Of a stretch of 64,000 nucleotides of DNA, positions 51,609 to 54,176 are shown piece after piece. The stretch's first letter is position 1, and each line of letters starts with the position of its first letter. Below the pieces are notes generated by a model, which was not told where the DNA came from, did no database searches, and saw only the letters and a program-made list of their open reading frames with translations. The position numbers and the translations under genes are program-made. This stretch comes from Halobacteroidaceae bacterium (GTDB lineage: Bacteria; Bacillota; Halanaerobiia; B1SED10-174): NCBI GenBank assembly GCA_003551665.1, contig PUNE01000013.1, positions 1-64,000 on the forward strand, written 5' to 3'.

Positions 51609-52259
51609 CTAATACTTCCGCAAAAGGCTGATTAATTTTCCGAGGATTGTTACCTCGCTGGTGTAGATGGGTTCCATGCTGGAATTATCCGGCTGCAGGC
51701 GGAAGGTATCGTTTTCCCGGTAAAACCTTTTAAGGGTGGCCTCATCACCCATGAGAGCTGCAACAATATCACCGTTTTCTGCAGTTTGCTGTTGCCTTAT
51801 TATTGCCAGGTCTCCATGGCGGATCCCAGCTTCAATCATACTGTCACCTTCCACCCGGAGAACAAAATGTTGCCCTCCGCCGGAAATAAGTTCCGGAGGA
51901 AGGGGAATTGTATCTTCAATGTTTTCCTGGGCCAGGATAGGCTGACCCGCGGTGATTGCTCCTACCAGGGGGAGGCGGATGATATCATCACCTTCATAAA
52001 TGCTTTCCTGTTGATCGGGGTATTCTTCTTTTAACAGGCCGATTGTTCGAGGCTGAGCAGGGTTTTTCTGGATATATCCAAATTTCTGCAAACGTTCCAG
52101 GTGATTATGAACTGTGGAAGGAGAACGAAGGCCTACCGCTTTTCCAATTTCTCGAACGGAAGGGGGGTAACCTTTTTCTCTAATATTTTTACGAATAAAT
52201 TCGAGGATTTCCAACTGCCGGGGGCCCAGCTTTTTCTTGCTGGCTTTTTTATCCAACAC
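51609..52259 (-). CDS. lexA: SOS repressor LexA
   Basis: This 216-residue protein has an N-terminal winged helix (LGPRQLEILEFIRKNI, PPSVREIGKAVGLRSPSTVHNH). The self-cleavage site is Ala104-Gly105 in GAITAGQPIL, and the catalytic pair is Ser 140 (EGDSMIEAG) and Lys 177 (DEATLKRFY). It represses DNA-damage genes until RecA-stimulated cleavage. A GTG at 52265 lies in the AGGAGG site, so GTG 52259 is chosen. Two boxes upstream indicate autoregulation. It is divergent from the yneA-like gene, an arrangement known from Bacillus. Confidence 0.95.
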   Translation of the reverse strand: MLDKKASKKKLGPRQLEILEFIRKNIREKGYPPSVREIGKAVGLRSPSTVHNHLERLQKFGYIQKNPAQPRTIGLLKEEYPDQQESIYEGDDIIRLPLVGAITAGQPILAQENIEDTIPLPPELISGGGQHFVLRVEGDSMIEAGIRHGDLAIIRQQQTAENGDIVAALMGDEATLKRFYRENDTFRLQPDNSSMEPIYTSEVTILGKLISLLRKY

Positions 52260-52278
52260 AAGCACCTCCTTTTCCCAT

Positions 52279-52332
52279 ATTATACCACAGCATACCCCTC
52301 AATGCAAACCTTTGTTCCAAAAACATTTGTTT
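52279..52332 (-). promoter_or_regulatory. lexA promoter with two LexA-type boxes
   Basis: On the minus strand, TTGCAT and TATAAT (plus coordinates 52302-52307 and 52279-52284) are spaced by 17 bp. Boxes AAACCTTTGTTC (52306-52317) and AAACATTTGTTT (52321-52332), both close to the GAAC-N4-GTTC pattern, start exactly 15 bp apart. The first overlaps the -35. Confidence 0.75.
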
Positions 52333-52443
52333 GGGCCCTTGATTTTATGAAAAAAAAGTCCGAAAATTAAAAAATTCCCTGTAGCCAGCCTCAGACCTAA
52401 TTCCTTTAGTTTTGCCTGCCAAAGGTATAAAACCATTACCCTG

Positions 52444-52486
52444 GACCCTCAAGGGCCTTAAAACGGCTCTCAGAGGGTCATTTTTT
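52444..52486 (+). terminator. Orphan intrinsic terminator in the lexA-yneA gap
   Basis: GACCCTC (52444-52450) and GAGGGTC (52473-52479) enclose 22 bases and are followed by ATTTTTT. No coding gene precedes it on the plus strand. It implies either a short RNA starting between 52333 and 52440 or a shield that keeps stray transcription out of the yneA-like promoter. I found no convincing promoter for such an RNA. Confidence 0.45.
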
Positions 52487-52565
52487 ATTTGATTTTTCCA
52501 GGATAGGGTCTGGGAAAGAAAAAATTTCTTTTGGGAAAAAAGAGAAGAGTAAAAGAGAAAAAACA

Positions 52566-52615
52566 AAACATTTGTTCTAAAAACACTTGTTCTTAGAACA
52601 GGTGTATGGTATAAT
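52566..52615 (+). promoter_or_regulatory. yneA-like promoter with three LexA-type boxes
   Basis: AAACATTTGTTC (52566-52577), AAACACTTGTTC (52581-52592) and GAACAGGTGTAT (52596-52607) begin exactly 15 bp apart. They cover a promoter with -35 TTGTTC (52587-52592) and -10 TATAAT (52610-52615) at 17-bp spacing. Tight SOS repression of the downstream gene is inferred. Confidence 0.75.
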
Positions 52616-52681
52616 TAAAACCAACAGATTGAATTAAGTCGTTTATTTTCATATCAGGAAGATTTATAAGGAGGGGATCTA

Positions 52682-52945
52682 ATGCGGTGGCGTTATCCAT
52701 TTTTTGTTCTGGTCCTGGCCCTTATTTTCATAGCACTTTTTACTATTTTTGCCCACAGTGAGGAGCCAACCCAGGTGGTTACAGTAAGGGTAAGCTCGGG
52801 AGACACACTATGGAGCCTGGCGAGGGAATACGGGGATCCAGGAACCGATCCCAGAAATACTGTGTTTGCCATAAGGCAGATCAACAACCTGGAAAACCCC
52901 CGGATCTACCCGGGACAGGAATTAAAAGTTCCCCTGAGCAATTAG
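52682..52945 (+). CDS. yneA: LysM cell-division-inhibitor-like protein (YneA-like)
   Basis: This 87-residue protein has an N-terminal membrane segment (residues 6-24) and one LysM domain outside the membrane (VRVSSGDTLWSLAREYGDPG at 35-54, IYPGQELKVPLSN at the end). Size, topology, divergent position to lexA and LexA-type boxes match B. subtilis YneA, which halts division during the SOS response. Sequence identity to YneA could not be checked, so orthology is inference. The ATG follows AAGGAGGGG. Confidence 0.8.
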   Translation: MRWRYPFFVLVLALIFIALFTIFAHSEEPTQVVTVRVSSGDTLWSLAREYGDPGTDPRNTVFAIRQINNLENPRIYPGQELKVPLSN

Positions 52946-53016
52946 ATAACTAGAAGAAACTGAGAGGCGGAGCTTTTAAAAGGGAAAGGCAAATTGATAA
53001 AGGAAAAAACTAAGAA

Positions 53017-53053
53017 ACCGGGGTCAAAAAAATAGACCCCGGTAAATTTTTTT
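53017..53053 (+). terminator. Terminator after the yneA-like gene
   Basis: ACCGGGGTC (53017-53025) and GACCCCGGT (53035-53043) form a 9-bp stem, and AAATTTTTTT follows. Confidence 0.88.
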
Positions 53054-53193
53054 CGGGGTGAGAAAAAAGGAAATGTTGTTCTGGTTTTAATGAGAGTGAT
53101 TTAAAAATAAGCTGGCCGAATGGTTGGGGGTCTGGAAAAAAAATTAGAGGATTTGCAGGAAAAAATCATCTTTTGTGGTAATTAAACTATAAG

Positions 53194-53221
53194 ATTTCGC
53201 AAAATTATTATTTTGCGAAAT
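53194..53221. other. dif: Candidate dif (Xer recombination) site
   Basis: Left arm ATTTCGCAAAA (53194-53204) and right arm TTTTGCGAAAT (53211-53221) are perfect inverted repeats around a six-base centre TTATTA, giving the 11-6-11 layout of dif sites. One more base pair (G/C) extends the symmetry on each side. The arm differs by one base from the XerC half-site ATTTCGCATAA of known dif and pdif sites. The site lies 27 bp before a XerC/D-like gene, and the main coding strand changes here. A cruciform operator for the recombinase gene is the alternative. Confidence 0.6.
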
Positions 53222-53249
53222 CAAATTCAGGCCAAAAAGGGGTTTTAAT

Positions 53250-54176
53250 ATGAATTTTGATCGGGCCCTGGAGTTTTATGTTAAGTATCTGCAAACCGAA
53301 CTGGGCTATTCCCTGCTAACTGTCAAAGAATACAAAAGTGACCTTACCCTTTTTTCTCGGTACCTTCGCCAGAAAAAAAATTTAAAAGAAACCCAACCCT
53401 TATCTGTTTCCAATATCGATAAATTTGACCTGGGTGATTTTCTGGCCGACCTTATCCTGGAAAGAAATAATGATCCCCGGACCAGGAATCGAAAACTTTT
53501 TGCTCTCCGCTCTTTTTTTCAGTTCCTTGTCCGCCAGGAAGTAATTACAGATGACCCCACCCGGGCCTACCGCTCCTCCAAAACCAGGACCTCTATTGAG
53601 CCCATATACCTGCGCCTGCCCCAGGCAAGGACATTTATGGATACCATATCCCGCTCGGGCCTTAAAACGGCTATTAGAGACCTGGCTATAATGAAACTCT
53701 TCCTTTATTGCGGTCTTCGTCTAAGTGAACTGGTCAGCCTCAACCTGAAAGATCTTCGTCTTGATGAGGACCCTTCCATCAGGGTTCTGGGTAAAGGAAA
53801 TAAAGAAAGAAATGTTCCCCTGCATGGAGAGGTTGCCAGCACCCTGAAAGAATATCTTCCCTGGAGAAATGAACTGAATCCAACCGGCAAAGATGCTCAG
53901 GCCCTCTTTTTATCCTTGCGCAAGCGCCGGATAAACCCCAGGACAATCCAGATTATGGTTAAAAAGTATGCCAAAAAAGCCGGCCTGGAAAACTCTTCGG
54001 ATATCACTCCCCACAAACTCCGCCATACCTTCGCCTCTCTACTTTATAAAGAAACAAAAGACCTGCGGGTGTTACAGGAACTTCTGGGCCATACAAGCGT
54101 ATCTACAACCCAGATCTATACCCACACTGATCCCGAACAACGCCGGAAAACAGTGGATAAAATGCCCAGGTTGTAA
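53250..54176 (+). CDS. XerC/XerD-like tyrosine recombinase
   Basis: This 308-residue site-specific recombinase has an N-terminal SAM-like core-binding domain (about 1-95) and a catalytic domain with Arg in YCGLRLSELVSL, Lys in LGKGNKERNVPLH, HKLRH (His and Arg), LGHTSVSTTQIYTH (His and nucleophile Tyr). Length equals Xer proteins and it lacks the extra N-terminal arm-binding domain of phage integrases. Together with the symmetric site 27 bp upstream it looks like a one-recombinase Xer system (compare XerS, XerH, XerA). Whether another Xer gene exists elsewhere cannot be seen. Confidence 0.9.
   Translation: MNFDRALEFYVKYLQTELGYSLLTVKEYKSDLTLFSRYLRQKKNLKETQPLSVSNIDKFDLGDFLADLILERNNDPRTRNRKLFALRSFFQFLVRQEVITDDPTRAYRSSKTRTSIEPIYLRLPQARTFMDTISRSGLKTAIRDLAIMKLFLYCGLRLSELVSLNLKDLRLDEDPSIRVLGKGNKERNVPLHGEVASTLKEYLPWRNELNPTGKDAQALFLSLRKRRINPRTIQIMVKKYAKKAGLENSSDITPHKLRHTFASLLYKETKDLRVLQELLGHTSVSTTQIYTHTDPEQRRKTVDKMPRL

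Follow-up and report, generated by a model that had tools for sequence, protein, structure and literature searches.

The 28-bp inverted repeat upstream of a Xer-type tyrosine recombinase gene in a Halobacteroidaceae bacterium is, in our judgement, very probably the dif site of its chromosome, with the neighbouring gene encoding the only Xer protein needed to act on it. The locus was found in the first 64,000 nucleotides of contig PUNE01000013.1 (hereafter the window), and its features are listed in Table 1. The sequence-only reading of the window had proposed a single-recombinase locus for the resolution of chromosome dimers, and the three points on which that proposal depended, namely the copy number of the site, its distance from the GC-skew switch and the possible presence of a XerC/XerD pair with a classical dif elsewhere, all turned out in its favour. 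With one conserved Xer protein and a unique site at the terminus, the system very probably belongs to the single-recombinase kind of dif/Xer systems.

Table 1. Features of the dif/xer locus and its surroundings in the window.
Feature	Position	Strand	Basis
dif-like recombination site (predicted)	53194..53221	.	sequence, single copy, class conservation, arm covariation, GC-skew maximum
Site, first arm ATTTCGCAAAA	53194-53204		
Site, centre TTATTA	53205-53210		
Site, second arm TTTTGCGAAAT	53211-53221		
Xer-type tyrosine recombinase, 308 aa	53250..54176	+	ORF, PF00589 + PF02899, NCBIfam, PDB relatives, invariant columns, tree
Possible -10 element TATAAG, directly before the site	53188..53193	+	sequence only
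Probable intrinsic terminator between LysM gene and xer	53018..53053	+	CCGGGGTC-AAAAAAATA-GACCCCGG-TAAATTTTTTT, read in sequence
Small protein with LysM domain in a YneA-like position beside lexA, outside the core system	52682..52945	+	PF01476
LexA repressor, neighbour	51609..52265	-	PF01726 + PF00717

The two arms of the site are complementary at 11 of 11 positions and enclose a 6-bp centre, which gives the perfect 11-6-11 layout described earlier; the gap to the start codon of the recombinase gene, previously given as 27 bp, is 28 bp (53222-53249). When up to three mismatches were allowed, this was the only copy in the window (0 expected from 100 shuffles), and the 2.87-Mb assembly likewise contains one copy, as had been anticipated. 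Perfect 11-6-11 palindromes as such are common since terminators form them, with 2 in the contig of the window and 6-39 in related 400-kb stretches. The bare palindrome count was therefore dropped as evidence, and the significance of the site rests on conservation and position rather than on palindromy. According to the sequence-only reading, each arm would be one base away from a putative XerC half-site ATTTCGCATAA. The left arm of E. coli dif is printed as GGTGCGCATAA (PMC3325230). In XerCD/dif systems of Bacillota the arms are asymmetric and dif is B. subtilis-like; the arms found here are fully symmetric, and a search of the window genome for a B. subtilis-like dif with up to three mismatches found none.

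The position of the site at the replication terminus is indicated by the cumulative GC skew, which climbs along the 251,793-bp contig to a single maximum at 53,285 and then declines. With its centre at 53,207, the site lies 78 bp from this contig-wide maximum, in line with the expectation that the skew would switch close to it. Long open reading frames also switch strand at the site (37 on the plus and 11 on the minus strand to its left, 17 and 136 to its right). In complete genomes of the class Halanaerobiia the distance between skew maximum and site is 133 bp in G012, 296 bp in G017, 220 bp in G022 and 43 bp in G024, and in G026 one of two nearly equal maxima coincides with it. The recombinase gene is 50 kb, 35 kb and 20 kb away from the maximum in G012, G022 and G024, respectively, which shows that the site and not the gene marks the skew switch. 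The sites are located at 0.48-0.54 of the numbered sequence, of which the numbering start may not be the origin. Moreover, in each of the six genomes examined GAAGAAG heptamers are polar and converge on the site from either side, and they resemble the A-rich guide heptamers reported for L. lactis (PMC5357621). This strong polarity may reflect a function as FtsK guide sequence (KOPS), yet codon use on the leading strand could produce it as well; given that the two are inseparable, we count it as supporting evidence only.

Across the class, an ortholog of the recombinase was identified in 52 of 59 genomes, and the motif TTCGYWAAA-N6-TTTWRCGAA with at most one mismatch in 50 of 59, nearly always as a single copy, while a reversed control pattern matched in 10 of 59. 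The window genome falls into this halophilic class by kinship, its named relatives being Frackibacter, Fuchsiella, Halanaerobacter and Natroniella. The arms match fully (11/11) in 34 of 47 sites, the 6-bp spacing is fixed and none of the 47 centres is palindromic. Arm positions 1, 2, 7 and 8 vary among genera, as exemplified by ATTTCGCAAAA, ACTTCGTAAAA and CCTTCGTTAAA, and these variable positions are concordant between both arms in 81 of 92 cases from 23 genera, a value that exceeds all 20,000 shuffles, with counts inflated by shared ancestry. The covariation of the arms within one site argues that a single protein reads both, as there is no other reason for them to change together. The seven genomes lacking the ortholog are mostly incomplete assemblies; G008 is complete, and an imperfect copy of the site is present there at G008:C1:716491-716518, at approximately 0.2 of the sequence, with an integrase-like gene some 2.5 kb away. 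G013 yielded no clear site. Most genomes carry one copy, while four exact motif copies are present in G054 (C41, C50, C58 and C131), an assembly with 6% contamination; these extra copies could be due to contamination or to elements using the site. In G034, ftsK, xer and the site are located within 15 kb (G034:C3:125114-139562).

None of the 59 class genomes encodes a protein passing the NCBIfam cut-offs for XerC or XerD, whereas in a sample of 81 genomes of the phylum the XerD cut-off is passed in 61 and the XerC cut-off in 48. In the window genome, neither a XerC/XerD pair nor a B. subtilis-like dif was detected. In four genomes, G002 (97% complete), G034 (99%), G039 (95%) and G040 (90%), the site-linked Xer is the single tyrosine recombinase matching PF00589. 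The window genome encodes three more tyrosine recombinases, two of which resemble phage-type integrases. The third is a Xer-like protein on another contig (L172:15304-16317, G000:C49) that is 36% identical to the site-linked Xer, and it raises the question of a two-recombinase, XerCD-like system with an overlooked partner. Its XerC/XerD scores of 219-232 bits are good, and similar second Xer-like matches occur in G004, as do more remote ones in f3 genomes. Nevertheless, the protein stays below both cut-offs, stands alone between unrelated genes and is missing from several relatives that retain the site, and the four genomes named above possess the site with no second match. In addition, arms that stay identical and covary are not what one would expect a pair of different recombinases to maintain. 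We therefore consider a missed partner very unlikely. FtsK with a gamma domain was found in 54 of the 59 class genomes. The C-terminal RQ-QQ residues by which XerD is reported to contact FtsK (PMC5357621) are absent from the 308-aa protein, as is likewise reported for XerS.

The 308-aa protein has the two-domain Xer layout (PF02899 and PF00589), and its residues R157, K182 or K185, H255, R258, H281 and Y290 match the RKHRHY-type catalytic pattern and are invariant across 26 class sequences. Its scores were below the curated cut-offs for XerC (249.5 against 335.15 bits), XerD (222.2 against 329.6), the XerS equivalog NF003462 (160.1 against 267) and archaeal XerA NF040815 (205.9 against 220). 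Judged by these cut-offs, it is neither a XerCD-type protein nor XerS nor archaeal XerA. The nearest solved structures are those of XerD, XerA and XerH (phmmer E-values of 9.2e-36, 8.9e-29 and, for 5jjv, 1.8e-23). The AlphaFold model (pLDDT 81, pTM 0.59) is of low confidence around the catalytic tyrosine; as a prediction it confirms the Xer fold and supports nothing beyond it.

Given that the site lies directly before xer, between the terminator and the ribosome binding site, and that a dyad is the usual shape of an operator, the palindrome might alternatively be an operator for the control of xer, bound by the recombinase itself or by some other dimeric regulator, with no role in recombination. 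The site is indeed 28-341 bp upstream of xer in approximately 12 genomes. In other genomes and families, however, the same site is 5-79 kb away from the gene (G006, G012, G014, G018, G024, G026, G038) and still at the skew maximum; wherever site and gene share a contig, the site is 5' of xer. Together with the invariable spacing and the non-palindromic centres, this makes a purely regulatory function highly improbable. Binding at the dif site could regulate xer in addition to its role in recombination. The recombinase gene is probably transcribed on its own, since a probable terminator separates it from the LysM gene; this terminator was missing from the automatic scan, whose loop limit is 8. 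The automatic scan detected no sigma-70-like promoter on the plus strand in the stretch around TATAAG. If this hexamer were a -10 element, which is speculative, the site would lie at the 5' end of the xer transcript.

A divergent lexA/LysM pair with SOS-box-like repeats, found by motif scan at 52305, 52565, 52580 and 52595 in the intergenic stretch near lexA, is located directly upstream of xer in the window (51609-53249). A neighbourhood of this lexA/LysM type is also present at loci L036, L037 and L038, the last being a similar arrangement in Frackibacter, and in Eubacterium callanderi (L047) lexA lies directly downstream of xer. The fact that lexA adjoins the system in the window, L038 and L047 suggests a possible link between dimer resolution and the SOS response.

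A tyrosine recombinase beside its own core site is also typical of integrative elements, but the neighbouring genes (lexA, LysM, uppP-like and others) include no mobile-element genes, the Xer proteins of the class group in a single clade with good support and the site occurs once per genome at the terminus throughout the class, so that we give practically no credence to an attachment site with the neighbouring gene as its integrase. Inheritance is consistently vertical and the place at the terminus is fixed, both of which speak against such an element. Viral contigs contained 0 matches to the exact 28-bp pattern and 0 to its clostridial version. As candidates for mobile elements using the site, 61 viral-contig matches to a relaxed 24-bp pattern were considered and rejected; their base composition is mixed, the outer letters mostly differ, and they look like chance matches or terminators.

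Under the interpretation as a single-recombinase dif, we infer binding, cleavage and recombination at the site, a dependence on FtsK and, as the outcome, the resolution of chromosome dimers. Each of the identical 11-bp arms would be bound by one Xer protomer. FtsK, guided by polar sequences that converge on the site, would pair the two sites of a dimeric chromosome at the septum, and four identical Xer subunits would then cut and swap strands around the 6-bp centre, thereby converting the dimer into two monomers. As the arms are identical, the direction of the site can come only from the non-palindromic centre, the immediate flanks or FtsK, and the order of strand exchange is perhaps set likewise.

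To our knowledge, only few bacterial single-recombinase systems have been described, namely XerS, XerH and XerL. Perfectly symmetric arms, one recombinase and a direction given by the asymmetric centre alone are features of Cre/loxP of phage P1, which has a 13-8-13 layout, resides on a phage plasmid and works without FtsK; Cre matches the 308-aa Xer at the level of the fold only. XerCD/dif of E. coli and its CodV/RipX counterpart of B. subtilis share with the present system the 28-bp length, the 11-6-11 layout, the terminus position, FtsK-gamma and the Xer fold, but use two recombinases and asymmetric arms. Apart from dif/XerL of the Legionellales, dif sites, including those of single recombinases, show just partial symmetry (PMC9765430). 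The sequence-only reading had likened the locus to XerS/difSL and XerH/difH, which holds for the single recombinase and the gene beside the site but not for the perfect symmetry, as the arms of difSL and difH are unequal (PMC5357621, PMC5241119). Both are hence poor precedents in this respect, and dif/XerL of the Legionellales is the appropriate one. It shares the single recombinase, the uninterrupted inverted-repeat arms, the position at the cumulative GC-skew maximum and letters unrelated to classical dif; its arms are 10 and 12 bp long instead of 11 bp, more than 400 kb separate xerL from dif in L. pneumophila, and in Coxiella the gene is carried by plasmids (PMC9765430), whereas xer is usually adjacent or within tens of kb here. 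The Legionellales belong to a different phylum, and the recombinases are likened by description. XerS/difSL of streptococci and lactococci is likewise a system of Bacillota with one recombinase encoded directly beside a terminus site, but difSL has 31 bp, an 11-bp centre and unequal arms, and XerS has 356 aa (PMC5357621). XerH/difH of Helicobacter and Campylobacter has one recombinase, a 6-bp centre and a site often near the gene (PMC3325230, PMC5241119), while the unequal arms of natural difH fix the order of binding and cleavage (PMC5241119, PMC3325230). The XerH chain, which has 363 residues, matches the 308-aa Xer less closely than XerD or XerA do; our tree was built without XerH sequences. 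In the literature consulted we found no description of such a system, and nothing on Xer or dif in Halanaerobiales or Halothermothrix. The group is not mentioned in the main text of the Kono survey, the supplementary tables of which may list a predicted Halothermothrix dif, and a 2017 review on Xer does not mention Halanaerobiales or Halothermothrix.

The system proposed by the sequence-only reading extends beyond this locus, throughout the Halanaerobiia and apparently into the Clostridia. In the tree the Xer proteins of the class form one clade (support 100/99), and its sister (95/89) comprises Clostridia proteins of Eubacterium, Clostridiaceae and Oscillospiraceae. The Clostridia members tested (L044-L047) are also below the XerC and XerD cut-offs. 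A perfect 11-6-11 palindrome with other letters is centred 84-229 bp before xer at seven Clostridia loci (L044, L045, L047, L049, L050, L051 and L068, the last of which was not placed in the tree), and at five of them approximately 50 bp or less separates the palindrome centre from the skew maximum of the 11-13-kb locus. About 40 loci that carry other xer or integrase genes served as controls, and none of them has this pairing. At L046, L048, L052 and L053, in or near the Clostridia clade, no adjacent palindrome was found. It seems fairly probable to us that the Halanaerobiia and their sister Clostridia (gut Eubacterium, Faecalibacterium-like) share a further class of bacterial single-recombinase dimer resolution, characterized by symmetric, coevolving 11-bp arms with all direction in the 6-bp centre. 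It would represent a natural, chromosomal loxP-like dif in which strand order is given by the centre or FtsK.

In this way a whole class of salt-loving anaerobes, and apparently some gut Clostridia, very probably separate accidentally joined chromosomes and do so without the two-enzyme system. XerS and XerH draw on the inequality of their arms to favour one strand for the first cut. With its identical, covarying arms, a class-wide single-recombinase system makes the need for arm asymmetry directly testable, as well as the possibility that FtsK or the centre alone is the source of order and direction. The varied arm sequences paired with their own recombinases also provide natural pairs for studying the arm-recognition code of Xer proteins, and the site is a ready terminus marker for assemblies of Halanaerobiia and possibly of common gut Clostridia. 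Outside these groups, three other genomes of Bacillota at least 97% complete (G062, G083 and G088) encode one or two Xer matches below both cut-offs and may represent further single-recombinase lineages.
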